A stretch of DNA of 64,000 nucleotides from an uncultured Alphaproteobacteria bacterium. GTDB lineage: Bacteria > Pseudomonadota > Alphaproteobacteria > Sphingomonadales > Sphingomonadaceae. The DNA lies in assembly GCA_903934325.1 (NCBI GenBank), contig CAIZNH010000008.1:1-64000 (forward strand). Reading direction: 5' to 3'. The position numbers and the translations under genes were made by a program. Shown piece after piece: positions 1,461 through 25,453 of this stretch. How positions within the stretch are numbered: position 1 is the stretch's first letter; each line of letters starts with the position of its first letter. The notes beneath the pieces were generated by a model. That model did not search any database and was not told where the DNA came from. It saw nothing but the letters and a program-made list of their open reading frames with translations.

Positions 1461-1656
1461 ACTTTGCGGTGTCGGTCACGAGGTCACCGGCGATAAGCGC
1501 GCGAAGGTTCTCGGCGGGGATTATGGTTCGCCCGCCCACCCGCGTTACGCGCAACCGCCCTGCGGCGATGTGATTGTAGATGGTGGTTCTGCCCAGACTT
1601 GACGCCTGACAGGCCTCGCGGATGCTGTAGCCCAGCTTTTGTGAATAGTGTTCCAT
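1459..1656 (-). CDS. AlpA/excisionase-type helix-turn-helix protein
   Basis: A 65-residue protein with one MerR/excisionase-like winged helix-turn-helix: LGYSIREACQASSLGRTTIYNHIAAGRL then RVGGRTIIPAENLRALI, the typical recognition helix plus wing. Proteins of this AlpA type regulate integrase or excision in P4-like satellites and genomic islands. The ATG at 1656 (MEHYSQK) has GGAAAAG upstream and is preferred over an in-frame ATG 21 bases earlier. Its place between the integrase and primase genes, all on the minus strand, fits a switch for excision or replication of the element. Confidence 0.8.
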   Translation of the reverse strand: MEHYSQKLGYSIREACQASSLGRTTIYNHIAAGRLRVTRVGGRTIIPAENLRALIAGDLVTDTAK

Positions 1657-1750
1657 TGCTGCTTTTCCATACAGCAACTCGCAAAGGCGGATGTGCCCGG
1701 TCGCTGTAGGACAGTGTCAAACAGGAGACCGTTCCGCCGAAAATCAGGGC

Positions 1751-9393: not shown

Positions 9394-11028
9394 GTGGACA
9401 GACGCGATTTTCTGGCGCTCAGCACCTTCTTTACCGGAGCCGCGCTTTCGCCCTCCATCTTCGGCAAGGCGATTGCCGCCAGCCAGCTTCAGGACGCGAT
9501 CGATATCGCGGTGAAGAAGCGGCTGGCCGATGCGGCGCTGTCCGCAGCCACTGCGGCGGGGGCGAGCTACTGCGACGTGCGCGTCGGGCGCTATCTGCGC
9601 CAGTTCGTCATTACCCGCGAACGCAACGTCCAGAACATCGTCAACACGGAAAGCACCGGCACCGGGGTGCGCGTGATTGCCGACGGATCGTGGGGCTTTG
9701 CCGCCACCAATGAACTGACCGAGGACGCGGTCGCCGCCGCTGCCCGCCAGGCGACCGCGATTGCCAAGGCCAATGCCCGCACGCTCGCCCAGCCGGTTCA
9801 GCTCGCCCCGACCCAGGGAGTGGGCGAAGTCAGCTGGCGCACGCCGATCAAGAAGAATGCGATGGACGTGCCGATCGCCGACAAGGTCGGCCTGCTGATG
9901 GGCGTCAACGAAGCCGCGCTTGGCGCCGGCGCGAGCTTCGTCAATTCGCTGCTGTTCCTCGTCAACGAGCAGAAGTACTTCGCTTCGACTGACGGGTCCT
10001 ACATCGATCAGGACGTGCACCGCATCTGGGCGCCCTTCACCGTCACGGCGGTCGACAAGACCACCGGCAAGTTCCGCTCGCGCGAGGGGCTCTCGGCGCC
10101 GATGGGGCTGGGCTATGAATACATGGACGGGCGCCCCGAGGACAAGTTCGTCCTGTCGAACGGGCTCACCACTTACGGCAATTCCTACGACATGAAGGAA
10201 GATGCCATCGCTGCGGCCAATGATGCGCAGGCAAAGCTCAAGGCGCCTTCGGTGAAGCCGGGCAAGTATGATCTGGTGCTCGATCCCAACCACCTCGGCC
10301 TGACGATCCATGAAAGCGTCGGCCACCCGCTCGAGCTCGACCGCGTGCTCGGCTACGAGGCCAACTACGCCGGCACCAGCTTTGCCACGATCGACAAGCG
10401 CGATGCGGGCTTCAAGTATGGCAGCGAGATCGTGAACCTGTTCGCCGACAAGACCCAGGTCGGCTCGCTCGGCGCGGTCGGCTATGACGATGAAGGCGTG
10501 AAGACCAAGCGCTGGGATCTGATCAAGGACGGCATTCTGGTCGATTACCAGACCATCCGCGATCAGGCCCATATCCTCGGCAAGGACGCCTCGGATGGCT
10601 GCTGCTATGCCGATAGCTGGTCGAACGTGCAGTTCCAGCGCATGGCCAATGTCAGCCTCGCGCCCGGCAAGACCACGCTGAGCCCGGACGACATGATCGC
10701 AGGGATCGAGAACGGCATCTACATTGCCGGCCGCGGCTCCTTCTCGATCGATCAGCAGCGCTACAATGCGCAGTTCGGCGGGACAGTGTTCTACGAGATC
10801 AAGAACGGCAAGCTTGGCCCCATGATCGAGGATGTCGCCTACCAAATGCGCACCCCCGAATTCTGGGGCGCGTGTTCGGCGATCTGCGACGAGAGCGATT
10901 ACCGCATGTTCGGCTCGTTCTTCGACGGCAAGGGCCAGCCGAGCCAGGTCTCGGCTGTGAGCCACGGCTCGTCCACCACCCGTTTCGACGGCATCAACGT
11001 CATCAACACTGCCCGGTCGCTGGGCTGA
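9394..11028 (+). CDS. Tat-exported TldD-family metalloprotease
   Basis: A 544-residue protein of the TldD/PmbA (U62) family. The zinc motif is intact: HESVGH at residues 306-311 (HExxxH). The start is the GTG at 9394, six bases after GGGGAG, which gives VDRRDFLALSTFF, a twin-arginine motif followed by a hydrophobic stretch, so the protein should be exported by Tat. Ordinary TldD is about 480 residues, cytosolic and has no leader, so this is a distinct subgroup. TldD with TldE trims peptides (microcin B17, CcdA). Here it heads an operon with TldE-like, DUF4159 and MoxR/DUF58/BatA genes, suggesting a periplasmic or surface maturation role, which is inference. Confidence 0.88.
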   Translation: MDRRDFLALSTFFTGAALSPSIFGKAIAASQLQDAIDIAVKKRLADAALSAATAAGASYCDVRVGRYLRQFVITRERNVQNIVNTESTGTGVRVIADGSWGFAATNELTEDAVAAAARQATAIAKANARTLAQPVQLAPTQGVGEVSWRTPIKKNAMDVPIADKVGLLMGVNEAALGAGASFVNSLLFLVNEQKYFASTDGSYIDQDVHRIWAPFTVTAVDKTTGKFRSREGLSAPMGLGYEYMDGRPEDKFVLSNGLTTYGNSYDMKEDAIAAANDAQAKLKAPSVKPGKYDLVLDPNHLGLTIHESVGHPLELDRVLGYEANYAGTSFATIDKRDAGFKYGSEIVNLFADKTQVGSLGAVGYDDEGVKTKRWDLIKDGILVDYQTIRDQAHILGKDASDGCCYADSWSNVQFQRMANVSLAPGKTTLSPDDMIAGIENGIYIAGRGSFSIDQQRYNAQFGGTVFYEIKNGKLGPMIEDVAYQMRTPEFWGACSAICDESDYRMFGSFFDGKGQPSQVSAVSHGSSTTRFDGINVINTARSLG

Positions 11029-11050
11029 GCCAGGCGCAGGAGAAGAACAC

Positions 11051-12373
11051 ATGAGCATTCTTACAGAAGCGCAGGCCAAGGCCATCCTCGACAAGGTGAT
11101 CGCCTTCTCGACAGCCGACGAAATCAGTGCACAGCTGGGCGGCGGCATTCGCGGCAACGTCCGCTTTGCGCGCAACGACATCTCCACCTCGGGCATTGTC
11201 GATGACATCGAGTTGGGCGTTCAGGTCGCTTTCGGCAAGCGCGTGGGCACGGCAACGATCAACCAGTTCGACGATGCCTCGCTCGAACGCGTGGTGCGCC
11301 GGGCCGAGGATCTCGCCAAGCTGGCGCCTGAAAACCCGGAATACATGCCCAACGTGGGCAAGCAGACTTACAGCGCAACCGAGACCTACAGCGAGTCCAC
11401 GGCCGCGCTGACTGCCGAAGCGCGCGCCAAGATCGCCGAGGCTTCGATCAAGCCCTGCCGCGAACGCGGACTGGTGGCTGCGGGCTTCCTTGAAGATGGC
11501 ACCACCTTCTTCGCTCACGCCAATTCCAACGGCAATTTCGGCTACCAGAAGTCGACCGTGGCCGACTACACCTGCACGGTGCGGACCGAGGACGGTCGCG
11601 GATCGGGCTGGGTTGCCAGCAACGTTCAGGGCGTGGCCGATCTCGATGCGGGCAGCGATGTCCAGATCGCGATGCGCAAGGCGGCCGCTTCGGTCGACGC
11701 TCAGGCGCTCGAACCGGGCAAGTATACCGTCATCCTTGAACCGGCGGCGGCCTCGGGGCTCATCAGCTTCATGATGAACTTCTTCGATGCGCGCTCGGCC
11801 GATGAAGGGCGCAGCTTTCTGTCGAAGCAGGGCGGTGGCAACAAGATCGGCGAGCAGATCATGGATCCGCGGGTCAACATCTACACCGATCCCTCGCACC
11901 CGGTCGTGCCGGCCATGCCGTGGGACGGCGATGGCCTCCCGCGGGAGCGCACCAAGATCATCGATGGCGGCAAGGTCGCGAACCTTCAGTATTCGCGCTT
12001 CTGGGCGAACAAGCAGGGCCGGCCGGAGACCGCGGGCTGGGGCAACACGATCATGGAGGGCGGCACCAAGTCCACTTCGGAACTGATCGCGGGCACCGAA
12101 CGCGGGATCCTGGTGACCCGCACCTGGTATATCCGCATGGTCGATCCGCAGACCGTGTTGCTCACCGGCCTTACCCGCGATGGCACCTTCTACATCGAGA
12201 ACGGGCAGCTGAAGTATCCGATCAAGAACTTCCGCTTCAACGAAAGCCCGGTGATCATGCTCAACAACATTGAGGAACTCGGCCGTTCGGTGCGGGTTGA
12301 GGATGGCAGCATGATGGTTCCGGCGATGAAGCTGCGGGACTTCACCTTCACCTCGCTGTCGGACGCCGTCTGA
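11051..12373 (+). CDS. TldE/PmbA-like partner subunit
   Basis: A 440-residue TldD/PmbA-family protein without the HExxxH zinc site, as expected of the non-catalytic TldE partner. It starts MSILTEAQAKAIL 22 bases after the tldD stop behind AGGAGAAG. The C-terminal beta-rich half is clear (ELIAGTERGILVTRTWYIR, NGQLKYPIKNFRFNESP). No signal peptide is present although the TldD partner has a Tat leader; it could travel as a Tat hitch-hiker in a folded complex, or the partner may stay inside. Assignment to the family is firm, localisation is not. Confidence 0.88.
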   Translation: MSILTEAQAKAILDKVIAFSTADEISAQLGGGIRGNVRFARNDISTSGIVDDIELGVQVAFGKRVGTATINQFDDASLERVVRRAEDLAKLAPENPEYMPNVGKQTYSATETYSESTAALTAEARAKIAEASIKPCRERGLVAAGFLEDGTTFFAHANSNGNFGYQKSTVADYTCTVRTEDGRGSGWVASNVQGVADLDAGSDVQIAMRKAAASVDAQALEPGKYTVILEPAAASGLISFMMNFFDARSADEGRSFLSKQGGGNKIGEQIMDPRVNIYTDPSHPVVPAMPWDGDGLPRERTKIIDGGKVANLQYSRFWANKQGRPETAGWGNTIMEGGTKSTSELIAGTERGILVTRTWYIRMVDPQTVLLTGLTRDGTFYIENGQLKYPIKNFRFNESPVIMLNNIEELGRSVRVEDGSMMVPAMKLRDFTFTSLSDAV

Positions 12374-12401
12374 CGCCAACCGGAAAGCAGGCGCGGGAAC
12401 C

Positions 12402-13130
12402 GTGAGCAGAACAGCCATGACCCGCGCCGACTTTCTCCGGCTGGCCGCCTCCGGCATCGCCGGTGCTGTGGCAAGCGCGGCTGCTGCGCAGCGTCCGGGC
12501 GGGGCGGCGACGGGTGGTTATGATTTCTGGTTCACCCGGCTCAAATACAATTCGGGCGACTGGGATGTGGACCAGCGCATGCCCGCCAATCTCATCACCT
12601 CGCTGATCGACTACACCAGCCTCAGGGTTGATCCCAAGGAGCACGTGGTGGCGCTCGGCGATCCGCAGATGCTGGGCGCCCCGTTCTGCTATCTCGCCGG
12701 GCACAAGGCGGTGGAGTTTTCCGCCACCGAACGCCGCAATTTCGAACGCTATGTGAGGAATGGCGGGTTTGTTTTCGTCGATGACTGCAACCACGACATC
12801 GATGGGCTCTTCGCCAAGTCCTTCGAGGCGCAGATGGCGGGCATTTTCGGCGCGGATGCGATGAAGAAGCTGCCCAATGATCACCCGCTTTATTCGAGCT
12901 TCTTCAAGTTCAAGGGCCCGCCCGCGACCAGTTTCGAGCTCAACGGCTGGGGCGATGACCTGATCCATGATTACCTCAAGGGTATCACCATCAACGGCCG
13001 TCTGGGCGTGCTCTACAGCAACAAGGACTATGGCTGCGAGTGGGACTACGACTGGCGCAACAAGCGCTTCCTCGCGGAGGACAACACCCGTTTCGGGGTG
13101 AACATCATCATGTACGCACTCAGCAATTGA
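12402..13130 (+). CDS. DUF4159-domain protein
   Basis: A 242-residue protein. Residues 1-30 look like an export leader (TRADFLRLAASGIAG, Tat-like but with one Arg of the pair missing). The rest is one DUF4159 domain: FWFTRLKYNSGDWDVD near the start, GHKAVEFSATERRNFERYV, then GFVFVDDCNHD. DUF4159 has a class-I-glutamine-amidotransferase-like fold and is usually encoded with MoxR, DUF58 and BatA genes, as here. Its biochemical role is unknown. GTG 12402 has a GCGGGAA site; ATG 12417 is an alternative. Confidence 0.85.
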   Translation: MSRTAMTRADFLRLAASGIAGAVASAAAAQRPGGAATGGYDFWFTRLKYNSGDWDVDQRMPANLITSLIDYTSLRVDPKEHVVALGDPQMLGAPFCYLAGHKAVEFSATERRNFERYVRNGGFVFVDDCNHDIDGLFAKSFEAQMAGIFGADAMKKLPNDHPLYSSFFKFKGPPATSFELNGWGDDLIHDYLKGITINGRLGVLYSNKDYGCEWDYDWRNKRFLAEDNTRFGVNIIMYALSN

Positions 13131-13143
13131 AGGGTTCAGGACA

Positions 13144-14151
13144 GTGGCACAGCAGGTGGCGGCGGATGGGCTGCAGATCGAACAGCGGCTCGCCCTTCTC
13201 GGCAAGCTGAAGCAGGCGGTCGCCACAGCGATTGTCGGGCAGGAGGATGTGGTCGAGCAATTGCTGATCGGGCTGCTTGCTGGCGGGCATTGCCTGCTCG
13301 AAGGCGTGCCGGGGCTGGGCAAGACTTTGCTGGTGCGCACGCTGGGCGAGGCGCTGGAGCTCGATTTCCGGCGCGTGCAGTTCACCCCCGATCTCATGCC
13401 CAGCGACATTCTCGGCACCGAATTGCTGGAGGAGGATCACGGCACCGGGCACCGCTCGTTCCGCTTCCAGAAGGGGCCGGTGTTCACCAATCTCCTGCTC
13501 GCCGACGAATTGAACCGCACCCCGCCCAAGACCCAGGCCGCACTGCTCGAGGCGATGCAGGAAAAGACTGTCAGCTACGCCGGACAGAACTACCAGCTGC
13601 CCAAGCCCTTCTTCGTGCTGGCGACGCAGAACCCGCTTGAACAGGCCGGGACCTATCCGCTGCCCGAAGCCCAGCTTGACCGCTTCCTGCTGCTGGTGCG
13701 CGTCGGCTATCCCACCGCAGCCGAGGAGCGCGACATTCTCGCCCGCACCACCGGCAGCGCTGGCGAGGCGGTGCCGCGTGTGATGGGGGCCGAGGATGTG
13801 CTGGCGCTGCAATCCTATGTGCGCGAAGTCCACCTCAGCGATGATCTGCTCGGCTGGATCACCACGCTGGTGCGTGCAACCCGCCCGGGCGATCCGGCTG
13901 CTCCGCCCGAGGTGGGCAGCTATGTGCGCTGGGGTGCGGGCCCGCGTGCGGGGCAGGCGCTGGTGCTGTGCGCCAAGGCGCGCGCGCTGCTCAAGGGCCG
14001 CTTTGCCGCCACGCGCGAGGATATCGCGGCGCTCGCCGCTCCGGTGCTGCGTCACCGCCTGCTGCTGTCCTTCGCCGCCGAGGCCGAAGGGAAGACTACC
14101 GATGATGTGGTCGCCGCGCTGCTGGCCCATCTGCCGCCGCCATCGGCCTGA
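13144..14151 (+). CDS. MoxR-family AAA+ ATPase
   Basis: A 335-residue AAA+ protein with Walker A GVPGLGKT at residues 54-61, Walker B LLADELNR, the MoxR signature RTPPKTQAALLEAMQE, sensor 1 ATQNPLEQAGTYPLPEAQLDRF and a C-terminal lid. MoxR proteins act as chaperone-like ATPases on metal-loading or assembly targets carrying VWA domains. It is followed three bases later by a DUF58 gene, the standard partner. The start is a GTG at 13144, 13 bases after the DUF4159 gene. Confidence 0.94.
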   Translation: MAQQVAADGLQIEQRLALLGKLKQAVATAIVGQEDVVEQLLIGLLAGGHCLLEGVPGLGKTLLVRTLGEALELDFRRVQFTPDLMPSDILGTELLEEDHGTGHRSFRFQKGPVFTNLLLADELNRTPPKTQAALLEAMQEKTVSYAGQNYQLPKPFFVLATQNPLEQAGTYPLPEAQLDRFLLLVRVGYPTAAEERDILARTTGSAGEAVPRVMGAEDVLALQSYVREVHLSDDLLGWITTLVRATRPGDPAAPPEVGSYVRWGAGPRAGQALVLCAKARALLKGRFAATREDIAALAAPVLRHRLLLSFAAEAEGKTTDDVVAALLAHLPPPSA

Positions 14152-14154
14152 TCC

Positions 14155-15051
14155 GTGGCGAGCCAGCCGCTCACTATCCCGCCAGAGATCCGCAGCCGCC
14201 TGAAGCGTCTGCGCCTGCGCACGCGCAGCGATCTGGGGGAGCGCGGCTTCGGCATGCATCCCAGCCGCAACAAGGGATCCGGGATCGAGTTCGCCCAATA
14301 CCGTGCCTATGAACCGGGTGACGAACCGCGCCGGATCGACTGGAAGCTGTTCGCCCGCTCAGACAAGTTCTTCGTGCGCGAGGCGGAGGAGGAAAGTCCG
14401 GTTTCGGTGTGGATCCTGATCGATGCCAGCGCGTCGATGGGGCAGGCTGACCGGGCGCGGCCCGATCACACGCGGCTCGATGCGGCGAAACTGCTGGCGC
14501 TGTGCATTGCCGAACTGGCGCAGATGCAGGGTGACCGGTTCGGCTGGGTCAGTTTGGGCGAGGATGCGCTCGGCCTTGCCGAGCCGCGCGGCGGGCGGGC
14601 GCAGATCGATCGCCTGCAGCTTGACTTCGCCAGACTTCAGCCCGGCGGCAGCTTCCCCGATGCGGCCGTGCTGGCCCCGCTGTGGGAACGGATCGGCGCG
14701 CATGATCTGGTGCTGTTTCTCAGCGACTGTTTCGACGAACGCGGCATCGCGCTGATCGATCGGCTGGCCAAGGCCGGGCGCGAGGTGCTCTGCGTGCAGA
14801 TGCTGACGGCAGAGGAGCGCGATTTCCCCTTCGATGGCGGCTACCGTTTCCATGATCAGGAAAGCGGCGAGGCGCTGATCGGCGATGGTGCAGCGCTGCG
14901 TGCAAGCTTCCTCACCCGCTTCGCTGCCGCCCGGGCGGCGCTGGGCGAGCGGCTCGATGCTGCGGGGATCCGCCACTGTGCCTATGTGCTGGACGAGCGG
15001 ATCGACCGGCCCTTGCAGGTGTTCTTCGGGCGCGGAGCTGACGCGCCGTGA
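14155..15051 (+). CDS. DUF58 (VWA-like) protein partnered with MoxR
   Basis: A 298-residue protein. Residues 41-68 (GSGIEFAQYRAYEPGDEPRR then IDWKLFAR) are the DUF58 signature. ILIDASASMG at 87-96 gives the DxSxS metal-ion adhesion site of a von Willebrand A fold. There is no membrane segment, so it is a soluble adaptor. MoxR and DUF58/VWA proteins work together in assembling or activating envelope or metal-dependent complexes. The gene begins with GTG three bases after MoxR and its stop overlaps the next GTG (GTGA). Confidence 0.92.
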   Translation: MASQPLTIPPEIRSRLKRLRLRTRSDLGERGFGMHPSRNKGSGIEFAQYRAYEPGDEPRRIDWKLFARSDKFFVREAEEESPVSVWILIDASASMGQADRARPDHTRLDAAKLLALCIAELAQMQGDRFGWVSLGEDALGLAEPRGGRAQIDRLQLDFARLQPGGSFPDAAVLAPLWERIGAHDLVLFLSDCFDERGIALIDRLAKAGREVLCVQMLTAEERDFPFDGGYRFHDQESGEALIGDGAALRASFLTRFAAARAALGERLDAAGIRHCAYVLDERIDRPLQVFFGRGADAP

Positions 15052-16190
15052 CCCCGTTGTTGCTCGCCCCGCTCGGCCTTGTGGCGCTGGCTGCGCTGAT
15101 CGGCCCGCTGCTCATTCACCTGCGTCGCCGCACCGAGGAGATACCGCTCGATTTCGCGGCGCTGCGCTGGCTCGATCCGCGCCCCCGGCCGCGCCAGCGC
15201 TTGCAGTTCGACGAGTGGCTGCTGCTCGCCCTGCGCCTGCTGCTGGTCGCGCTGCTCGCACTGCTGCTGGCGCGGCCTGCGGTGCTGGGATGGGAGGATG
15301 ACGGCGCCCGGGTGCTCGCCGCGCCCGGCCTTGATCCTGCCGCAGCGCGCAAGGCAGCCGGGGCCGAGGCTGATATCCGCTGGATCGCGCCGGGTTTCCC
15401 GCCCGTCGCAAACGCGTCGCCCAAGCGGTCGCAGGCGACAGCGAGCCTGATCCGCCAGTTCGATGCCGAATTGCCCGAGGGCGCGGGGTTGAAGATCCTT
15501 GTCCCTGCCGTGCTCTATGGGGTCGATGCCGCGCCCTTGCGGCTCACCCGCAAGGTGGAATGGCGCGTGATTGACGCAGCTGCTGCCGAGACCAAGGCCG
15601 CACCCGTGGCTAACCCCGCGCTCGCCGTGCGCCATGCTGCTCGGCAGGCTGCACAGGTGCGCTTTCTGCGCGCCGCCGCCGAGGCATGGGGAGGCGCGCC
15701 GCGGTTCGAGGCGAAGAGCGATGACAGCCTGCCGCCGCCCGACACCGTGCTTGTCTGGCTCACCCCGGGTCCGCTCCCGCCAGCGGTGACGCGCTGGGTG
15801 GAAGATGGCGGCACGGCCCTGCTCGGCCATAGCGCCGAGGTGGCCATGCCGGCAGCGAGCGCGCCCCTTTGGCAGGGCGAGGGCGGGGTGGTGCTGGTCG
15901 AAGGCGGGCCCTTGGGGGCGGGGCGGATCATGCGCTTTGCCCAGCCGCTGGAACCGGCGGCCATGACCGATCTGTTCGCCCCGGGCTTTGCCACCGCCTT
16001 GCGCGATCTGGTCTTGCCCCCTGCGCCGCCCCCCGCACGGGTCAAGGCCCAGGACTATGCCCCCAAGGCCGGCACCGCGCCCTTTGCACTCCCCCCGCGT
16101 GAACTTTCCGCATGGCTCGGCGTGCTGATCGCGGCGGTGCTTCTGGCCGAACGCCTGATCGCCGCGCGCCGCCGCAGGTTTGCCGCATGA
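15048..16190 (+). CDS. BatA-like membrane protein
   Basis: A 380-residue protein. The N-terminus is the BatA domain: a membrane helix (LLAPLGLVALAALIGPLLIH), then LRRRTEEIPLDFAALRWL, then QFDEWLLLALRLLLVALLAL as the second helix. A long extracytoplasmic part follows and a third helix lies near residues 353-370. A helix pair with LRRR between is typical of BatA/aerotolerance-type proteins. The middle part has no intact VWA metal site, so it may present surfaces rather than bind metal. It overlaps both neighbours by four bases. Confidence 0.85.
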   Translation: MTPLLLAPLGLVALAALIGPLLIHLRRRTEEIPLDFAALRWLDPRPRPRQRLQFDEWLLLALRLLLVALLALLLARPAVLGWEDDGARVLAAPGLDPAAARKAAGAEADIRWIAPGFPPVANASPKRSQATASLIRQFDAELPEGAGLKILVPAVLYGVDAAPLRLTRKVEWRVIDAAAAETKAAPVANPALAVRHAARQAAQVRFLRAAAEAWGGAPRFEAKSDDSLPPPDTVLVWLTPGPLPPAVTRWVEDGGTALLGHSAEVAMPAASAPLWQGEGGVVLVEGGPLGAGRIMRFAQPLEPAAMTDLFAPGFATALRDLVLPPAPPPARVKAQDYAPKAGTAPFALPPRELSAWLGVLIAAVLLAERLIAARRRRFAA

Positions 16191-18307
16191 GCCGGATGAT
16201 CCTCTTCGAGGACTGGCTCGTCCCCGCGCGTCGCCGCGCCGTCGCCGATGTGCTGCTGTTGGGCAGCCCGGCCGTGCTGGTGTTCGCCGCCATCGGCTGT
16301 GCGCTGGGCGGTTGGGCGGGCGGAGCAGGGCTGCTCGTGCTGAGCGGGGCGGGGCTGGGCGCGGCGGCTTGGCACCGCGCCCGGGCGCTTGACCGCGACT
16401 GGCTGGTGCGCCGTCTCAATGCCCGCGAGCCGCAGCTTGAGGACAGCGCGGATCTTGTTTTTGGCGAGGGCGATCTCGCTCCCTTCCAGCGCTTTCAGGC
16501 CGAACGCGTGGCCGGACGCATCGCAGCCATCGATCCGGCGAGCCTTGCCCAAGGCTGGTCGCGGGGCCGCATCATCGTAAGCTGGATCATCGGCACGCTG
16601 GCCCTCGTGGGCGTGCTCCTGTGGCAGGCCCAGCGTTCCGCTCCGCCGCCGCTGGCCGAGGTGGCCGCAGACCCAGCCAGCTTACCTAGCGAACCGCGCC
16701 TTGTCGGCCAGCGCGTGCGGATCATCCCGCCTGCCTATACCGGCCTGCCTGCCCGCGATGCCGACAGCCTCGATATCCGCGCGCCCGCCGGATCGCGGAT
16801 CGAATGGCGTTTCGGCTTTGCGCCGCAGCCCACGGTGGCTGCGTTGCAACTGGTCGGTGGGCAGCGCGTGGCGCTGGCGCGCGATGGCGAGGCTTGGACG
16901 GGCGGGCTCAGGCTCGACGTGCCTTCGCTCTACCGCCTCACCGCCGCAGGCATGCATGCAGCCCAGCCGACCCACCGGCTCGAACCCATCGCCGACGAGC
17001 CACCGCAGGTGCGCGCCATCGAGCCTGCCTCGGGCCTTGTCGAGATGCGCCCCGGGCAGAGGAGCTGGCGCGTCGTCTTCGAGGCGAGCGATGACTATGC
17101 CGTCGATCCGCTTGCCCGTCTGACTCTCACGACTGCCATCGGCGAGGGCGAGAATGTGCGCTTTTCCGAGCGGAGCCAGACGGTGCGCGGCACAGCCGTG
17201 AGCGGGGGCGATCCGCGTCGCCGGCGCTTCGTGATCGATCTTCCGCTCGGCTCCTATGGTCTCCAGCCCGGCAGCGATCTGGTGGCGCAGCTGACCATTG
17301 CCGACACCCGCGCGCCGGAGCCGCAGGTGGTGCGCGGTCCGGGCGTGATCCTGCGCTATCCCGCCAAGCGCGCGATCGAGGCCGAGGGTCTTGATCTGAT
17401 GGCCAAGCAGCAGATGCCCGCCTATTTCCGCAGCCAGCGGCAGGTGATCATCGACACCGAGGCCCTGATCAAGCAGCGCCGCAACCTCAGTGCCGATGAA
17501 TTCATGCTGCGCTCGGACACCATCGGGGTCGATCAGCGCCTGCTTCGCCTGCGCTATGGCCAGTTCGTGGGGATGGAGGCCGAGGAGACCCCCAAGCCGC
17601 CGCTGCCGACCTCCGACAAGGATACCCCGCCCGAGCCGGAGCATTACGATGGCGATGGCCATGATCACGGCTCGGCGCCCGAAAGCCCCGTGTTCGGTTC
17701 GCTCGGCGATGTCACCGCCGAATATGGCCACACCCACGACGAGAGCGAAGCGGCGACCTTGCTCGATCCCGGCACGCGCGCGCTGCTGAAGGCGGCGCTT
17801 GATGCGATGTGGGAGGCGGAGCTGAACCTGCGATCGGGCCGCCCCGAAGCGGCTTTGCCGTTCGAGAACATCGCGCTCGACAATATCAAGAAGGTGCAGC
17901 AGGCGACCCGCATCTATCTGCCGCGCATCGGATCGCAGCAGCCGCCGATCGACCTCGCGCGGCGGTTGACGGGCAAGCGCGAAGGCATCGTGGGCAAGGG
18001 CGCGCAGCTGGTGCCTTTCGCGATTGCCGACGCGGTACCGGCGACAGCATGGCGCGCGCTGGCGCAGCCGGGGGCGATCGATCTTGCCGGGCTTGAGAGC
18101 TGGGTGCGCAGCAATTCCACGCGCCTCAGTGATCCGCTCTCCGTGCTGGCCGCGATCGACGCGCTGCGCGGCAAGCCCGGCTCGCAGGCCCTGCGGGAGG
18201 CTCTGCGCGGACAGTTGTGGAGCGTGCTTACGCGCCCGCCCACACAGGTGCGCCGCCGCAATGATGGCGGGGATATCGGCCGGCGCTACACACGGGGCTT
18301 GCGCTGA
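16187..18307 (+). CDS. Large membrane protein of the MoxR operon (DUF4175-like)
   Basis: A 706-residue protein beginning at ATG 16187 inside the previous stop (ATGA). Two helices near 25-65 and one near 128-146 anchor it. A large extracytoplasmic region follows with beta-rich segments, for example VRIIPPAYTGLP and WRVVFEASDDYAVDPLARL, as in DUF4175-type proteins. Near residues 480-530 is a His/Asp-rich stretch (YDGDGHDHG, EYGHTHDESEA) that could bind metal. It lies in the same cluster as BatA in other alphaproteobacteria as I remember it, but the function is unknown. Confidence 0.72.
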   Translation: MSRMILFEDWLVPARRRAVADVLLLGSPAVLVFAAIGCALGGWAGGAGLLVLSGAGLGAAAWHRARALDRDWLVRRLNAREPQLEDSADLVFGEGDLAPFQRFQAERVAGRIAAIDPASLAQGWSRGRIIVSWIIGTLALVGVLLWQAQRSAPPPLAEVAADPASLPSEPRLVGQRVRIIPPAYTGLPARDADSLDIRAPAGSRIEWRFGFAPQPTVAALQLVGGQRVALARDGEAWTGGLRLDVPSLYRLTAAGMHAAQPTHRLEPIADEPPQVRAIEPASGLVEMRPGQRSWRVVFEASDDYAVDPLARLTLTTAIGEGENVRFSERSQTVRGTAVSGGDPRRRRFVIDLPLGSYGLQPGSDLVAQLTIADTRAPEPQVVRGPGVILRYPAKRAIEAEGLDLMAKQQMPAYFRSQRQVIIDTEALIKQRRNLSADEFMLRSDTIGVDQRLLRLRYGQFVGMEAEETPKPPLPTSDKDTPPEPEHYDGDGHDHGSAPESPVFGSLGDVTAEYGHTHDESEAATLLDPGTRALLKAALDAMWEAELNLRSGRPEAALPFENIALDNIKKVQQATRIYLPRIGSQQPPIDLARRLTGKREGIVGKGAQLVPFAIADAVPATAWRALAQPGAIDLAGLESWVRSNSTRLSDPLSVLAAIDALRGKPGSQALREALRGQLWSVLTRPPTQVRRRNDGGDIGRRYTRGLR

Positions 18308-20130
18308 TGCCGGGGCCGGAGATGCTCGCCAGCGCGCTGATCGCGGTCGCGGCCGTGGCGGCTGCGGTGCGTTTTGCGCTGTTGGGGCGCGGCAGGCAGG
18401 GCTGGCTTCTCGTCGGGCTTTCACTGGCGAGCGGACTGCTTTTGTGGCTGACATTGTTCCCGCCCATGCTCCCGGTTGGCGGTGAGACGCTGCTGGTTGC
18501 GACCGCCGAAACGCCTGCCGGAACCCGCGCAGGGGCGGGAGAGCGGCTCGTCGCGCTGCCCGAAGCGCCCGCGATTGCCGGGGCCGAGCGCGTTCCCGAT
18601 CTCGCCACAGCGCTGCGCCGTCACGGGCAGGTGCAAACGATCCGCATCCTTGGCCGCGGCTTGCCGCCGCGCGATCGCGACACGGCGGCGGGCGTGCCGG
18701 TCCAGTTCCGCCCGCTGCCAGACCTGCGCGGGCTGGTGCGGCTCGATCCTCCGGCGGACACGCCTGCGGGCGCAGTGTTTGCGCTGGGCGGCGAAGCGGC
18801 GGGTCTGGCGGGAGGGATGGCAGAACTGCTCGATCCTGCCGGACGCCGCGTTGATGTGCGGGTGATCGGGGAGGAGGGCAGCTTCACGCTTGGCGCGGTC
18901 GCCCGGGCGCCGGGTCTCGCCCGCTTCACCCTGCGGCTGCGCGGGGCTGACAAGGCGATTGTTTCCGATACGCCCGTGCCGCTGCGCACGCTGGAGCAGC
19001 CGCCGGTGCGCGTGGCATTGATCGGCGCGCCTTCGCCCGAAGCCAAATATCTGCGCCGCTGGGCCGAGGATGCGGGGATCGACCTGTCCAGCCGGCTCGA
19101 CGCGGGCGGCGGCGTGTCGCTGGGCGAGGGTGTGCGGCTCGATACGGCGGCCTTGCGCGAGGTCGATGTGGTGATCATCGATGATGCGGCGCTCGCCAGC
19201 CTTGGCGGCGGCGGACGGGCAGTGCTGGCCGAGGCGTTAGCGGGCGGGCTCGGCGTGGTGATCCGCATGGCAGCTCCCGCGAGCGGTGCGACGCGCCAGT
19301 CGTGGCGCGGGCTTGGGCTCGCGGTGGAGGGCGGGAGCGCCATCGAACCGGTCGCGCTGCCCCCGCTCGCGCCCGATGCCGAGACGTTGGCCCTGCGGCG
19401 CGGTCCGGGCAGCGCCGATCAGCCCGAGGGCCTCAACACCTTTGACGATCCTGTCCCCGATCTCGGCCGATGGGATGTGCGCGGCGGCGCTGATCTGGTG
19501 GCCGCGGTGTCGGATGCCGACGGAGCGCTGATCGCGGGCTGGCAGCAGCGCGGGCAGGGGCGGGTGATGCTGTGGACCGTTCCCAATTCCTACGCGCTGG
19601 TGCTGGGGGGCGAGGGGGATCGCTATGCCCAGTGGTGGAGCCAGGCGTTGAGCGCGGTGGCCCGGCCCGAAGGCGGCTTCCGTCCCGAAGTGCCGCCGCT
19701 ACCGCGTACGGGCGAGCGTATGGCGGTATGCGGCCTGTCCAGCCCGGCGCAGGTGTCGGCGCCGGGCGGGTCGCGCCATGATCTGGTGGTTGATCCGGCG
19801 GCGGGCGCAAGGGGCTGCGCGGCGCTATGGCCTGCCGAGCCGGGGGTGCATGTCATCACCACCCCTGCGCGCGGGCAGGCGCCGGCGCAGAGTTTTGCAT
19901 TGCTCGTGTTGCCGCGCGCGGCGCTGGCCGGCATCGCGGCGCGCGAAACCGGCGCGGAAACCTTGCGCTGGGCGATGGCGCAGACGCGTCCCGCAGCGAG
20001 CGACCGTCCCGAGCAGCGCGGTGCGGCATGGCCGTTCTTCCTCGGCTGGTTGCTGGCAAGCGGCGCGTTGTGGCTGATCGAGCGACGCCTTCGCGCAAGG
20101 GGTTCGAGCTTTCCCCAAGCTGGAGGCTGA
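18307..20130 (+). CDS. Large membrane-anchored protein of the MoxR operon
   Basis: A 607-residue protein with two N-terminal helices (about 6-25 and 32-52) and one C-terminal helix (about 575-593) followed by a basic tail, so most of it lies outside the cytoplasm. The middle holds a glutamine-amidotransferase-like segment (REVDVVIIDDAALASLGGGG, GLGVVIRMAAPA) and QQRGQGRVMLWTVPNSYALV, a topology shared by BatA-cluster proteins. No catalytic triad is seen. Its start shares a base with the previous stop (TGATG), so it is translationally coupled. Confidence 0.7.
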   Translation: MPGPEMLASALIAVAAVAAAVRFALLGRGRQGWLLVGLSLASGLLLWLTLFPPMLPVGGETLLVATAETPAGTRAGAGERLVALPEAPAIAGAERVPDLATALRRHGQVQTIRILGRGLPPRDRDTAAGVPVQFRPLPDLRGLVRLDPPADTPAGAVFALGGEAAGLAGGMAELLDPAGRRVDVRVIGEEGSFTLGAVARAPGLARFTLRLRGADKAIVSDTPVPLRTLEQPPVRVALIGAPSPEAKYLRRWAEDAGIDLSSRLDAGGGVSLGEGVRLDTAALREVDVVIIDDAALASLGGGGRAVLAEALAGGLGVVIRMAAPASGATRQSWRGLGLAVEGGSAIEPVALPPLAPDAETLALRRGPGSADQPEGLNTFDDPVPDLGRWDVRGGADLVAAVSDADGALIAGWQQRGQGRVMLWTVPNSYALVLGGEGDRYAQWWSQALSAVARPEGGFRPEVPPLPRTGERMAVCGLSSPAQVSAPGGSRHDLVVDPAAGARGCAALWPAEPGVHVITTPARGQAPAQSFALLVLPRAALAGIAARETGAETLRWAMAQTRPAASDRPEQRGAAWPFFLGWLLASGALWLIERRLRARGSSFPQAGG

Positions 20131-20189
20131 CAAGCGCAGCCGTTTTTCCTAACAGCGCAGCAAGGCCATGTCTGAAGGGGGAAAAGGCT

Positions 20190-21668
20190 TTGTACAAAAC
20201 GGGTTGCGGGCTGTCTGCCCTCGCGCTGCTTTCGACGACATTGGCCGGCTGTGCGATCACGCCGAACCACAATTTGGCCCCGCGCCCCGCGCCGACCGGG
20301 TGCCATGAGATCATCACCTCGGGCGCGCGCGTGCCCTTGCCTCCCAGCAACATCCGCCAGCCTGCCGCAGTGGTCGCGCCCGACGACGGACCGCCGGAAG
20401 AAAGCGTGTCCGAGAGCCTCGCTGAGAGCAATCCGATCGAGACGATGCTGACCGAGATGCTGTCGCAGCCCTTGAAGACGCTCGAGGCCGAAGCCAATGC
20501 CGAGGGCAAGCCGGATGTGAGCCAATCGGTGCTGGTGCTTTCGGGCGGCAGCCAGCAGGGTGCTTTCGGAGCCGGGTTCCTCAAGGGCTGGGCCGATCAC
20601 CCTGCGCGCGGCGGCACCTTGCCGCGCTTCCGGCTGGTGACCGGGATCAGCACCGGATCGCTGCAAGCGACCTTCGCCTTTCTCGGTCGCACCGATGTGC
20701 CCTTGCGCGAATACCGGATATCGGACGAGGCCCAATTGCTGAAGCCGCTGGTGAAGGGCCGGCTTGATCAGAAGCCGCTTTCGGCGGGGCGCAGCCTTGC
20801 GACCAAGGGCACGCTCGCCCGCCTCACCCCGCTGCGCGAACGGCTCAATGCGCTGATCACGCCCGACATCATGAAGGCCGTGGCCGACGAGGCGCTCGCG
20901 GGGCGCCAGCTGCTGGTCGGCGCGGTCGAGATGGGGACGGGCGAATTGTCGGTCTTCAAACTGACCGAGGCGGCCAAGCTCCACGAAGCGCGCAAGAAGA
21001 CCGATCCGGCGGGCGCCGAGCAGATGCGCCAATGCTATATCGAGGCGCTGCTCGCGTCGTCGTCTGTGCCGATGCAGGCCGATCCGGTTTTCATCGACAA
21101 CCGCCTCTATATCGATGGCGGTGCGCGGTTCGGGGTGCTGGTCGATTTTACCGCTAAGTCCTACGAAGCCGCGATCGCCAAGACCCAGCAGCAGCAGCGC
21201 GAGCCGAATACCCCGCGCAACCTGTTCCTGATCGTCAATGCCACGCTCGAAGTGCCGCGCTTCTGCGGGCTCGAGCGCTGTCCGGTGGATGGCGAGGGCA
21301 AGCCGATCGAGCCCGGGATCGATGATCCCCACCCCAAATGGAACTTCGCCGAACTCGCCCAGCGCACCGTCAGCGTGATGACCAATCAGGCCTATCGCAG
21401 CTCGGTGTTCATGGCCGACAAGGAATTTCGCGACAAAGGCTTCAAGACCCGCTTCCTGCGGCTCGATCCGGCGCATCTGAATTTCACGTCTGCGATCACC
21501 TTTGACGGGGTGAAGCAGGAGCCGAGGACATGCTGGCAATGGCGGCTGGAGGATGAGCGGCTCGACAAGCCGATGGAGTTCTTCCCGCGCTACATGCACT
21601 GCCTTGCCGAATTCGGCCTCGCGCAGGACGCCAAGATTGCCGCTTTCGCCAAGGCCGAGCCGCGCTGA
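20190..21668 (+). CDS. Patatin-like phospholipase lipoprotein
   Basis: A 492-residue protein. TTG at 20190 is used as start: GGGGGAAAAGG lies just upstream and it gives a lipoprotein signal with lipobox LAGC at about residue 20. The patatin motifs are present: oxyanion loop LSGGSQQGAFGAGFLKG, nucleophile in GISTGS (GxSxG) and DGGARFG with the catalytic Asp. The C-terminal 150 residues carry several Cys (CGLERC, TCWQW) that may form disulfides. It is predicted to be a membrane-anchored acyl hydrolase acting on phospholipids. It is last in the TldD-MoxR operon, 59 bases after the preceding gene. Confidence 0.88.
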   Translation: MYKTGCGLSALALLSTTLAGCAITPNHNLAPRPAPTGCHEIITSGARVPLPPSNIRQPAAVVAPDDGPPEESVSESLAESNPIETMLTEMLSQPLKTLEAEANAEGKPDVSQSVLVLSGGSQQGAFGAGFLKGWADHPARGGTLPRFRLVTGISTGSLQATFAFLGRTDVPLREYRISDEAQLLKPLVKGRLDQKPLSAGRSLATKGTLARLTPLRERLNALITPDIMKAVADEALAGRQLLVGAVEMGTGELSVFKLTEAAKLHEARKKTDPAGAEQMRQCYIEALLASSSVPMQADPVFIDNRLYIDGGARFGVLVDFTAKSYEAAIAKTQQQQREPNTPRNLFLIVNATLEVPRFCGLERCPVDGEGKPIEPGIDDPHPKWNFAELAQRTVSVMTNQAYRSSVFMADKEFRDKGFKTRFLRLDPAHLNFTSAITFDGVKQEPRTCWQWRLEDERLDKPMEFFPRYMHCLAEFGLAQDAKIAAFAKAEPR

Positions 21669-21686: not shown

Positions 21687-21732
21687 CAAAAAACGGGCGG
21701 GACAGCGTGTTGCTGCCCCGCCCGCCTTTTTA
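21687..21732. terminator. Bidirectional intrinsic terminator
   Basis: AAAAAA, then GGGCGGG-ACAGC, a short loop, GCTG-CCCCGCCC and CCTTTTT form a strong GC stem flanked by A and T runs on either side. It can end the long operon on the plus strand and the TonB-receptor message arriving on the minus strand. Confidence 0.88.
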
Positions 21733-21749: not shown

Positions 21750-24700
21750 TCAGAAGCGCGCGGTCACCCCGAGGAACAAGGTGCGGCCGATGCCCGAGAC
21801 CGGGTAGGCCGAGCTCGACAGGTAGGGTTCCTCGTCGGTCAGGTTGTTGATGCCGCCGTAGACCGTGATCTCGTCGGTGGCATCGAGGTTGAAGGCGAGG
21901 TTGTGCAGCCAGTATTCCGGCGCGAAGCCGGCCGGGCCGAACTCGGTGTCGATCCGCTCGATCTGGATGACCGAGGCAACCGCCGTCGAACCGATATACT
22001 GCACCCCGTAATTGAGGGTGAAGTCGCCGCGGTTCCAGGTGACCGAGCCGAAGCCCGCCCATTCCGGAGCGCCCAGCTCGCGCAGGCCCGGGTTGACGAA
22101 GGTGGTATCGACCGGATCGAAGAAGCGGTTAAGCCGCTCGGTCCAGTTGCCGCCAACCTGCAGGTTGAAGTTGTTCTTGCCCAGATCGAAACCGTAATTG
22201 ACCTGGAAGTCGACCCCGCGCGTGTCCAGCTTCGCAAAGTTGATCTGGCTCTGCTGGAGGAAGTTGAGGCCCAGGAAGGTCTGCGATCCCGCTGTGCGGT
22301 TGCGGGTGAACAATCCGCAGAAATCGTTGGGGAAGGTCGGCAGATCGTAGCAGCTGTCGACGATATCCTGCGCGGTAACCGCCTGGATCGCGTCCTCGAT
22401 GTTGATCGAGTAATAATCTGCCGAGATCGACAGACCAGGCACCCAACGCGGCTGGATCACCGCACCAACGGTGAAGGTCGTTGCGGTTTCTTCCTTCAGA
22501 TTGGGGTTACCGCCCGAAGTGCCCGAGAAGCGCGCGGTCAGCGGATCCTCGAACCCGGCCGGAATCCCGTCCGCACGGCAGTTGTTCAGACGGTTCTGTG
22601 CCGCTGGATCATTGCTCGCAATCAACCGGTCGATGTTCGACTGGCTGCACGGATCATTGGGACGGAAGGTCGCGGTCTGCTGCGGGCTGAACAGTTCCGA
22701 GATGTTCGGCGCGCGGATGGCCTGAGCGTAGGTGCCGCGGAAGCGGATATCCTCGATCGGGGCCCAGATGCCGTTGACGTTCCAGGTGAAGGCCCCGCCA
22801 ACCGTCGAATAATCCGCGTACCGACCCGCTGCACCCAGCGTAAGCTCGTGGAAGAACGGCGTATCGGCAAGGATCGGCAGCAGCACTTCACCGAAGACTT
22901 CGTAGACATCGAACTGGCCGCCGGCGTTGAACTGGCGGGTCGCATCGAACACGAGGCTCTGGTTGGGCGAAACGTTGCCGATGAAGGTGCCGGCAGGGCC
23001 TGCGGGCGAGCCTTCCGGCAGCAGGCCGAGCAGCAGATCGTCGAACGTCGAACGCGACTTTTCCTTGCGGTATTCCGCACCCAGCGAGAAGCGGACAGCA
23101 CCGCCCGGCAGGTTGAAGAACGCTCCGGTGTCGCCGTTCAGCAGGCCGGTGATGACGGTCTGTTCGAGGCGGGCGCGGTTGGTGGTCGGCGTGGTGATGA
23201 AGTCCACACCGGCCTGGCTGACCGAGTTGGTTCCGCGGAACAGGTTGACCGGAACACACTGGCCGTCGCCGGGACGGAAGGTGAAGAAGCCGGGTGCGAT
23301 GACCGGGAAGGCTTCCGAACCCGGGTGCGGCGCGGCTGCGGGGTTCAGGGTCGAACGGCACACCGGCTGGCCGGTGCGCGGGTCGGTCACCACGTCGATC
23401 GCGGCGAACAGACGGTCATAGCGCACCGAGTTGCTGAAGGTGGTCGCGTTGTCGGTACGGCCGTAGTTGCCGACGACCTCGTACTTCAGGTGCGGAGTGA
23501 TCTCGCCATCGATCCCGCCGACGATGCGGTAGGTCTCGCGCTTGGCGGTCGAGATGCCCGGCCCGAGGTCAAGGAAGTCACGGCTGATGCGCAGGCCCCC
23601 GGCAGCGTTCGAATCCGCGCGCAGCACGGCCGGAATGAAGGGGTTGTCCGGAGCAATGAACAGCGTGTCGTAGAAGGTGTTGTAGTTGTTGCGGCTGGTC
23701 GTCTCGTTGCGGACGTACTTGGCATCCATCCACACGCGCGCGGCGGGCGAGAATTCGAAGCTGGTGCGCAGGTTGGCGTAGATGCGCTCCGAACCCGGGA
23801 TCAGCGAGGTTTCGTTGGTGCGTTCCACCGCGCCGTCACCGCCGAACTGGTTGGCGCCGGTGGCCACGATGCCATCCTGGAAGATGCGCACGCCGCCTTC
23901 GGGGGTGGTGACATAGCAGCCGCCGCCGCCAAAGCCGGTGCGCCCGATGAAGCTCTCGTTACAATCGGGAACGCCGTTGTTGTTGATGTCGGCCGAGAAG
24001 AAGTCGAAGTCGTTGCGGAACACGAGGCCCTGGTTCGACGAGATCGCAAAGCGCGGGTCCGAACCGATGACGAAGCCGGGCGCTGCTGCTGCACGGTCAA
24101 CCAGCGCCTGTTCGGCCGGGGTGATGCCGCCCGGGAACAGCGTCGCGATCTGCGCTGCGGTCGGGATCAGCTGGCCATAGGGGAAGCGGCCTGCACCACC
24201 AACGCGGAAGCGGTTGGCGAAGTTGGGCATGGTGGCCGCGTTGATTTCGCCGCGCTGGAAGCGACGCAGCGGGTTGGCATAGGTGGTCGAGTTGTTGCCG
24301 CGGCCGTTGTCACGAGTGAACTCGCGCGCGCCGAACAGGATTTCATCGTCCTTGGTGTAGCCTGCCGCGAGCGTGACATTGCCGCGCCCATCGGCAAAGT
24401 TCTGGCCGACAACGCCTTCAAGGCGGTAGCTGCGGCCATCACCCTTCGACGAGATGCTCATCTGGCCGTCGAGCTGGACGCCTTCGAAATCGCGCTTGAG
24501 TACGTAGTTCACCACGCCGGTCACCGCGTCCGCACCATAGACGGCCGAGGCGCCGCCGGTGAGCACTTCGACGCGCTCGATCAGGGCGTTGGGGATGGTC
24601 GAGACGTCGACGGTCTGCGAACCGGCCACACCCGAGACGTGGCGCCAGCCATCGATCAGCACCAGTGTACGGTTGGCACCGAGCTGGCGCAGGTTGAGCG

Positions 24701-25043
24701 TTGCCTGACCGACACCGCCCGCGCCGCGCTCGATCGAGTCGGCGACAGTGCCCGAGGAAATCAGCGCCGGGATCTGGCGAAGCGCGGCGGTTGCGTCGGT
24801 CGAGCCGAAATTGCGCAGCGCATCGGCATCGAGCGTGCTGACCGGCAGCGGCGCGACGGCATTGGGATCGCGCGCGATACGCGAACCGGTGACGACGATC
24901 TGTTCGCTCGGTGCTTCTGCGGCGTCTTCTTCAGCGACGCTGTCCTGCGCCTGGGCGATGCCCGGAGCGAGCAGCGAAACGAACAGCGCGGCGGCCAGCG
25001 CCCCGCGCGATGCGGTTTGGCGGGTATGTGTCGAATAACGCAT
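21750..25043 (-). CDS. TonB-dependent outer-membrane receptor
   Basis: A 1097-residue receptor. The signal peptide ends at IAQAQ (about residue 33); EQIVVTGSRIARDPN is the TonB-box/plug start; the plug runs to about 160 (ANRTLVLIDGWRHVSG, GGASAVYGADAVTGVVNYVL), and a 22-strand barrel ends in Phe (TLFLGVTARF). A Cys-rich loop (CNESFIGRTGFGGGGCY) is present. It imports a ligand across the outer membrane using TonB energy. The long form is typical of sphingomonads, and the substrate (sugar, peptide or siderophore) is not deducible. The start at 25043 is chosen because it directly begins the signal peptide and has GAGGAC upstream. Confidence 0.95.
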   Translation of the reverse strand: MRYSTHTRQTASRGALAAALFVSLLAPGIAQAQDSVAEEDAAEAPSEQIVVTGSRIARDPNAVAPLPVSTLDADALRNFGSTDATAALRQIPALISSGTVADSIERGAGGVGQATLNLRQLGANRTLVLIDGWRHVSGVAGSQTVDVSTIPNALIERVEVLTGGASAVYGADAVTGVVNYVLKRDFEGVQLDGQMSISSKGDGRSYRLEGVVGQNFADGRGNVTLAAGYTKDDEILFGAREFTRDNGRGNNSTTYANPLRRFQRGEINAATMPNFANRFRVGGAGRFPYGQLIPTAAQIATLFPGGITPAEQALVDRAAAAPGFVIGSDPRFAISSNQGLVFRNDFDFFSADINNNGVPDCNESFIGRTGFGGGGCYVTTPEGGVRIFQDGIVATGANQFGGDGAVERTNETSLIPGSERIYANLRTSFEFSPAARVWMDAKYVRNETTSRNNYNTFYDTLFIAPDNPFIPAVLRADSNAAGGLRISRDFLDLGPGISTAKRETYRIVGGIDGEITPHLKYEVVGNYGRTDNATTFSNSVRYDRLFAAIDVVTDPRTGQPVCRSTLNPAAAPHPGSEAFPVIAPGFFTFRPGDGQCVPVNLFRGTNSVSQAGVDFITTPTTNRARLEQTVITGLLNGDTGAFFNLPGGAVRFSLGAEYRKEKSRSTFDDLLLGLLPEGSPAGPAGTFIGNVSPNQSLVFDATRQFNAGGQFDVYEVFGEVLLPILADTPFFHELTLGAAGRYADYSTVGGAFTWNVNGIWAPIEDIRFRGTYAQAIRAPNISELFSPQQTATFRPNDPCSQSNIDRLIASNDPAAQNRLNNCRADGIPAGFEDPLTARFSGTSGGNPNLKEETATTFTVGAVIQPRWVPGLSISADYYSINIEDAIQAVTAQDIVDSCYDLPTFPNDFCGLFTRNRTAGSQTFLGLNFLQQSQINFAKLDTRGVDFQVNYGFDLGKNNFNLQVGGNWTERLNRFFDPVDTTFVNPGLRELGAPEWAGFGSVTWNRGDFTLNYGVQYIGSTAVASVIQIERIDTEFGPAGFAPEYWLHNLAFNLDATDEITVYGGINNLTDEEPYLSSSAYPVSGIGRTLFLGVTARF

Positions 25044-25453
25044 TGTGTGTCCTCGCACCGGCGTACAAAACTTTGCAGGATATCCAGAGCTACGCCGGAG
25101 GAGCTCGGATACCACGTGTGACCGGGGCAGCTGGCACGCGACGGCAATTGCCGCGCGCCGGGCAAGCTCCGGAGCGGTTCTTCCTGCTCAAGGCGAGGCC
25201 CCGGATTGGCTCCGGGTCTCAGACCACCTTGGTGTTGAACGGCCTGCCTTCTTTCACAGGCCAGACTCCAAAAATGCCGCAGCCATCGCGGCGCGGCAAG
25301 CCGGGAAGTCCGCAATCCCGTGCCGCCATCGCCTTTTGATGTGACAGTGTAACCCAATGGCAACATGGGCTTTGTCACGCTCTTGCGGCTAGCGGGGTTT
25401 CTACGTTTTTGCGGGTTCGCCTCGGGCGGTGCGCTCTGCTAGCAGCCTTCGTC
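25044..25453. other. Divergent control region, TonB receptor and mcd
   Basis: These 410 bases contain no supportable gene. A hairpin at about 25195-25220 (GAGGCCCCGGA with TCCGGGTCTC) would lie in the leader of the receptor mRNA. GTGACA near 25340 and TTGTCAC near 25374 form a loose dyad of 5-base arms. Promoters for both genes must lie here, but no clear -35/-10 pair can be fixed. Confidence 0.4.

Follow-up and report, generated by a model that had tools for sequence, protein, structure and literature searches.

Two kinds of described system bear most directly on the locus considered here, an eight-gene block carried by a 64,000-nucleotide stretch of DNA (contig CAIZNH010000008.1, positions 1 to 64,000; hereafter the window) from an uncultured member of the Sphingomonadaceae. 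The first is the metallopeptidase TldD/TldE of Escherichia coli (PDB 5nj5; PMC5810440), with which the block shares three PmbA_TldD domains per subunit, the HExxxH motif and a tldD gene lying beside tldE. The metal of the E. coli TldD is held by the two histidines of HExxxH and by Cys454, Lys456 tethering the same strand (PMC5810440). Unlike this enzyme, the TldD of the block has a twin-arginine translocation (Tat) leader, an aspartate in place of the liganding cysteine and extra invariant cysteines, its gene lies in a MoxR operon, and a second tldD is recurrent.

The second kind comprises operons that contain a MoxR ATPase. In Rhizobium leguminosarum, the genes RL3499-RL3502 (cmdA-cmdD) bring MoxR, DUF58 and Bat-type membrane proteins together in one operon, as here, and their loss results in envelope and shape defects (PMC5700661). 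This operon differs in that TldD/TldE do not appear in its description, a distinction drawn from the account given there and not from sequence (PMC5700661). The BatI operon of Bacteroides and the Bat operons of spirochaetes share MoxR, DUF58 and the BatA N-terminal domain with the block, and also encode VWA-type BatA/BatB and TPR/BatD parts (PMC5700661), whereas the BatA of the block has no VWA match and is accompanied by DUF4159, DUF4175, a GATase1-like protein and TldD/TldE. NorQ/NorD is likewise composed of a MoxR AAA+ protein and a VWA partner bearing a metal ion-dependent adhesion site (MIDAS), but it has a different target, and the block adds membrane proteins and a peptidase (PMC13036017). 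Seen against these systems, the module adds a new variation to types already described and is not a wholly new system.

A probable earlier sighting of the module comes from Stenotrophomonas maltophilia, in which a "not-yet-characterized operon" was reported to contain two TldD proteins, a MoxR-like ATPase and other proteins, membrane or hypothetical; part of its genes were downregulated in biofilm in all isolates (PMC7688217). This operon (NIPOLPBK_01784-01792) is very probably the same system, a judgement made on gene content and not on compared sequences; in a similar way, the Stenotrophomonas loci surveyed below (L058-L060, L095) carry the module with two tldD copies. In that paper TldD is linked to gyrase, and the accessible portion of its text mentions neither a Tat leader, nor the metal site, nor conservation (PMC7688217). 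The original prediction, made from the letters of the window alone, had called the pathway undescribed. This was nearly right, the operon having very probably been mentioned once, uncharacterized. No published account of the TldD leader, of the aspartate site or of the conserved unit was found in a search conducted mostly outside subscription papers, and no published description of a Cys-to-Asp change at the TldD metal site was encountered.

The eight-gene unit in the window and in other genomes

The block spans positions 9394-20130 of the window and consists of the following genes:

tldD, 9394..11028, plus strand: TldD-type metallopeptidase subunit, 544 residues; leader MDRRDFLAL...GKAIAA; HESVGH at 306-311; Asp511 at the position of the canonical third-ligand Cys
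tldE, 11051..12373, plus strand: PmbA/TldE-type partner, 440 residues, without a signal peptide
DUF4159 protein, 12402..13130, plus strand: 242 residues; Tat-like N-terminus, mostly with one Arg (TRADFLRL)
moxR, 13144..14151, plus strand: MoxR AAA+ ATPase whose Walker A, Walker B (DE) and sensor motifs are preserved
DUF58 protein, 14155..15051, plus strand: VWA MIDAS motif DASAS
batA-like gene, 15048..16190, plus strand: BatA N-terminal domain with two transmembrane (TM) segments, a periplasmic part and a C-terminal TM segment, judged by inspection of the sequence; without a VWA match
DUF4175 membrane protein, 16187..18307, plus strand: start ATG 16187 preferred over 16112
gene 8, 18307..20130, plus strand: GATase1-like membrane protein; TM helices at both ends, GATase1/ThuA-like domain at 232-456, no Pfam family

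Pfam assigns PmbA_TldD domains to the first two genes and DUF4159, AAA_3 (MoxR), DUF58, the BatA N-terminus and DUF4175 to those that follow, gene 8 having no match. All nine open frames initially proposed, that is these eight and a patatin gene (also recognized by Pfam), were confirmed in the window, as were gaps of no more than 60 bases between them. Among the first eight genes the tightest junctions overlap by 4 bases and the widest leaves 28 bases (with the DUF4175 start taken as ATG 16187), and the largest gap of all, 59 bases, separates the stop of gene 8 at 20130 from the patatin start (TTG 20190). The start of tldD (GTG 9394) is preceded by GGGGAG. A promoter scan of the window returned no sigma-70-like site, and an alignment of the upstream regions of ten loci yielded no defensible motif.

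Conservation of the block was surveyed in two samples. A scan of named genomes gave 416 relatives, of which the best 80 by similarity to the window TldD were analysed, gene order being read with the window proteins as tblastn queries. All eight genes were found in order and on one strand at 69 of these 80 loci, and nine others were cut by contig ends, the order being standard up to that point. The two remaining loci, both from Brevundimonas (L100, L101), looked rearranged; actually, each keeps the standard order, its own tldD standing at the edge of the locus, and carries an extra tldD downstream in convergent orientation. The second sample consisted of 398 Pseudomonadota genomes drawn evenly, the neighbourhood not being a selection criterion; the two samples overlap, as L125 of genome G606 shares downstream DNA with L100. 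Strong TldD matches (above 750 bits) occurred in 13 of the 398 genomes, the next best match reaching 381 bits. DUF4159 matches at an E value of 1e-20 were found in exactly the same 13 genomes, with the two genes adjacent in each. Across these 13 (the window and L121 plus L124-L134), TldE, MoxR, DUF58 and DUF4175 are always present and so is gene 8, in two cases by hidden Markov model (HMM) alone, while batA was found in 12 (nine by tblastn and three more by Pfam), the thirteenth locus, L131, giving a weak HMM match only.

The set and its order persist from class to class, even where TldD identity falls to 64%. The eight genes from tldD to gene 8 form a fixed unit, and their order is far beyond chance. 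The association of TldD with MoxR, suggested at first by the window alone, holds elsewhere, both in the 69 loci with the full set and in all 13 genomes.

The conserved set stops at gene 8, one gene short of the nine-gene unit first put forward. The patatin-like lipoprotein gene (20190-21668, plus strand) was rejected as a member of the module, being found at none of the 80 loci, many of which are short past gene 8. Upstream flanks are long (at least 2 kb in 76 of 84 loci) and downstream flanks short: among the 74 loci with gene 8, they extend for at least 600 bases in 58 and for at least 800 bases in 48. Because of this shortness, whole genomes were searched for 20 of the 80 loci, and 18 of these module-bearing genomes had no patatin relative at an E value of 1e-10, the other two showing domain matches of 37% elsewhere. 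In addition, when 13 longer downstream flanks were inspected, the sole patatin match was the window's own. The gene is read as a recent local neighbour of the module; convergent with it lies a gene for a TonB-dependent receptor (plug and barrel; 21750-25115, minus strand). A single closing terminator had been proposed. A strong hairpin with a T run does follow the patatin gene (21694-21731; -26.5 kcal/mol, z -2.65), although it is absent from the list of a consensus terminator scan. Where gene 8 ends, that scan reported a further hairpin of terminator type, likewise with a T run, which is weak (20125-20147; z -0.92); the four sites it gave in all are fewer than the 7.9 expected by chance.

Carriers of the module include some aquatic, soil and plant-associated bacteria, and the TldDs nearest to that of the window belong to Erythrobacter and Porphyrobacter (94% identity to the protein of L037). 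Of 119 genomes from the window's family, 5 show a strong TldD match, and one sampled from its own genus (G182) lacks it, which makes the distribution of the module patchy. No close homologue was found in plasmid records, two of which gave matches at about 40% identity. The window genome (99.95% complete) has no TldD/TldE besides this exported-type pair and no second DUF4159, and other genomes of the family, such as G012, carry both canonical and exported-type TldD/TldE.

Leader and metal site of the module TldD

An alignment of 85 TldD rows (the window and 84 loci, with the best copy per locus) provides the main evidence on the N-terminus. Residues 3 and 4 are RR in 85/85 rows, F6 (position +2) is kept in 84/85, a K or R stands at position 25, before the A-x-A, in 80/85, and A28 and A29 are kept in 84/85 and 83/85, respectively. 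TldD combines the usual marks of a Tat substrate (RRxF, a moderately hydrophobic core and a basic residue before A-x-A), and a TatC gene is present in the window genome. By this conservation, its N-terminus is a real Tat leader with a basic c-region, as had been predicted.

TldE presents a different picture, with an MSIxT-like N-terminus and no RR, KR or RK within the first 20 residues in any of 85 rows. On the Kyte-Doolittle scale, the most hydrophobic 15 of the first 30 residues average 0.76 in TldE (highest 1.58) versus 1.61 in TldD (lowest 1.23), a few TldE N-termini overlapping the TldD range. As TldE has no leader and the E. coli enzyme requires its TldE to be active (PMC5810440), export of TldE as a hitchhiker is the simple inference, and this mode of export is known in other Tat complexes (PMC4273604, PMC10924467). 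TldE would then leave the cytoplasm together with TldD, and the predicted location of both is the periplasm. The DUF4159 protein also begins with a Tat-like sequence, in which one Arg is invariant (65/65) and RR occurs in 5/65; its export may be by Tat or by Sec. Its leader resembles a Tat leader that has lost the second Arg in most members and offers a natural test of single-Arg export.

PmbA_TldD domains 1-3 score above the gathering threshold in both TldD and TldE. The HExxxH motif of TldD, noted as intact from the beginning, reads HESVGH in the window, and its H-E-H is kept in all 85 rows as well as in all 46 clade rows of a 60-row alignment (46 clade TldDs, second copies included, and 14 outgroup rows). 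What the original prediction had not foreseen is a change from Cys to Asp at the third ligand. The corresponding column holds Asp in 46/46 clade rows versus Cys in 14/14 outgroup rows, Asp in 85/85 rows of the larger alignment, and Asp in 10/10 clade rows versus Cys in 26/26 outgroup TldDs of a third alignment. For this last one 27 outgroup loci were tried, and it omits L010 (no frame) and the truncated L026, which has Cys at the ligand column in a separate reading. Residues D511-G512-K513 align with E. coli Cys454 to Lys456, the Gly and the Lys being conserved. The window TldD is a family member by its domains and is not of the canonical His-His-Cys type. Its scores with the curated NCBIfam models fall far short of the cut-offs, at 120 bits for TldD (cut-off 635) and 76 bits for PmbA (cut-off 513), and TldE reached 50 against 438. 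The alignments suggest that Asp511 serves as a metal ligand and that the change may reflect an oxidising compartment, in which an oxidisable ligand would be avoided.

Cysteines have also become fixed elsewhere in the protein. Every clade TldD has Cys403 and Cys494 (85/85), and Cys60, Cys404 and Cys498 occur frequently, whereas these residues are missing from most canonical TldDs. Cys403 and Cys494 could be disulfide partners; Cys404 and Cys498 are not lost together, and so lend no covariation support to a bond. In TldE, Cys175 is kept in 85/85 rows and Cys136 in 82/85.

In a tree of the 60 rows, built by a quick method with support from the Shimodaira-Hasegawa-like approximate likelihood ratio test (SH-aLRT) only and with long-branch warnings, all 46 TldDs of the Asp type fall into a single group (SH-aLRT 99). 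Within it, Alpha- and Gammaproteobacteria are intermixed, and L132, from the order of the window, pairs with L133, from another class (SH-aLRT 100). In the explanation favoured below, the eight-gene module is viewed as horizontally shared. By BLAST, two tldD copies and a single tldE occur in each of 20 of the 84 loci (L120 included). The same tree places the origin of second copies at several points: one lies at the root of a Lysobacteraceae group, and others, seemingly independent, lie in Rhodanobacteraceae, G532, G370 and G213. Repeated duplication of tldD within the module, mostly beside one tldE, is seen in L120, L131, L134, L100 and the Lysobacteraceae loci.

A possible envelope machine and its rivals

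The remaining components point to the inner membrane and to ATP. MoxR keeps Walker A, the DE of Walker B and the sensor residues (83 rows). The DUF58 protein has a weak VWA_2 match in Pfam, and its DxSxS motif keeps the first D and the last S in 80/80 rows and the middle S in 67/80. The role of VWA adaptor, at first attributed to BatA, has to be moved to this protein: the batA-like product has only the BatA N-terminus, and neither it nor gene 8 has a Pfam VWA match at an E value of 0.001. MoxR, DUF58 (VWA) and a BatA N-terminal protein stand side by side, as in Bat/Cmd modules, and the VWA-bearing BatA/BatB of those modules is missing. For gene 8 the predicted fold is confident, with a mean predicted local distance difference test (pLDDT) score of 89.8, and structure comparison of the model places the GATase1/ThuA-like domain (Z up to 16.7) between the TM helices. 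OST48, the first Foldseek row for this protein, had a poor overall root-mean-square deviation.

The favoured explanation, to which a probability of about 0.45 is attached, is that of a variant MoxR-DUF58-Bat/Cmd envelope module in which a periplasmic TldD/TldE caged metallopeptidase is supplied with envelope clients by an ATP-driven process. In this model, TldD and TldE would fold and pair in the cytoplasm, and the heterodimer would be exported via Tat by the twin-arginine leader of TldD, with TldE as hitchhiker. Once outside, the metal would be held by His306, His311 and Asp511 in place of His-His-Cys, avoiding an oxidisable Cys thiolate. The BatA-like protein, DUF4175 and the GATase1-like protein would together make up a platform in the inner membrane, and DUF4159 would sit on the outer side of it. 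In a last step, which is a conjecture, cytosolic MoxR and the DUF58 VWA protein would use ATP to remodel this platform; the effect would be to free or unfold an envelope protein or peptide, which TldD/TldE would then cut. The stricter form of the idea, a trans-membrane AAA+-powered protease in which MoxR ATP hydrolysis, relayed by the Bat-type platform, presents envelope proteins to the Tat-exported His-His-Asp cage, its metal site rebuilt to suit an oxidising compartment, is doubtful.

Several observations weigh against the favoured model. Bat/Cmd modules described without TldD (PMC5700661) imply that the general job of the machine is not tied to the peptidase. MoxR and DUF58 have no export signal, and thus any action across the membrane must go via the membrane subunits. 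In the likely homologous S. maltophilia operon only some genes changed together (PMC7688217). L131, one of the loci of the 13 genomes, has two tldE as well as two tldD copies, and the AlphaFold model of TldD is poor (mean pLDDT 56, the C-terminal half having failed). Finally, the outgroup TldD of L116 (genome G122; 1521-2957, minus strand) has a Tat-like leader and keeps the Cys ligand, meaning that export alone does not force the Cys-to-Asp change. It adjoins a TldE gene just past which the contig ends, and a MoxR set may lie further downstream. The sister of L116, L135, shows no Tat-like leader, and on the single example of L116 the leader may predate the loss of the Cys.

The chief rival views MoxR and DUF58 as a dedicated assembly or metal-insertion chaperone for TldD/TldE, acting before or during Tat export as NorQ/NorD does for nitric oxide reductase, with the membrane proteins linking chaperone action either to the translocon or to the place where the enzyme ends up. 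MoxR/VWA pairs such as NorQD do remodel partner enzymes or insert metals (PMC13036017), and the idea gains from TldD being a metalloenzyme, from Tat substrates folding before export, from the intact DUF58 MIDAS and from the obligate linkage of TldD to MoxR. It is rather unlikely nevertheless, given that related MoxR-DUF58-Bat operons are described without TldD (PMC5700661), that the E. coli pair is active without such helpers (PMC5810440) and that three large membrane proteins plus an exported DUF4159 exceed the needs of a chaperone.

That TldD/TldE acts in the maturation of a single particular peptide, secreted or modified, the module being its secretion or immunity apparatus, would agree with the leader cleavage performed by TldD/TldE in the pathways of microcin B17 and other ribosomally synthesized and post-translationally modified peptides (RiPPs; PMC5810440). 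A dedicated modified-peptide pathway was among the options first proposed, but the searches make it improbable. Open reading frames of at least 60 residues outside the block were clustered over the 84 loci and the window; the widest cluster appeared in 17 of 85 sets, mostly through genus-level synteny, and no substrate gene recurred beside the block beyond such synteny in this size range, frames under 60 residues being unsearched and the downstream flanks short. Comparison of the 13 longer downstream flanks (2.7-4 kb) and the window gave long shared stretches only in pairs from the same genus or genome, the remaining short tblastx matches (at most 51 bits) being taken as noise. Pfam identified no RiPP enzyme among the eight genes. 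TldD is known from pyrroloquinoline quinone (PQQ) pathways, and the name MoxR derives from methanol dehydrogenase. A PQQ link was rejected, as pqqE is below the cut-off in the window genome (best 56.6 bits versus 381) and also in 14/14 control genomes.

Quite improbable as well is that the leader stays uncleaved and anchors TldD to the inner membrane, or that TldD never leaves the cell interior, with TldE in the cytoplasm. The lack of a leader on TldE would fit such an arrangement, whereas the conserved A-x-A after the hydrophobic core, the lost Cys ligand and the newly fixed Cys speak against it; a tether facing the periplasm would still suit the favoured model. Lastly, the view of the eight genes as co-travelling neighbours without joint function, which would expect the mixing of Alpha- and Gammaproteobacteria in the tree as for any mobile cluster, is highly improbable in the face of one gene set and order kept across classes, of co-occurrence in 13/13 genomes and of the absence of any other widely conserved neighbour.

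TldD/TldE has usually been viewed as processing peptides in the cytoplasm, and for MoxR-Bat operons envelope phenotypes are described but no client is known. The module links the two in many Proteobacteria and supplies an actual enzyme, for which both metal site and location are predicted, offering a way into the role of the Bat/Cmd-type machine. If the favoured model is true, the module would also provide a natural example of a metallopeptidase that switched its Cys ligand to Asp along with export.

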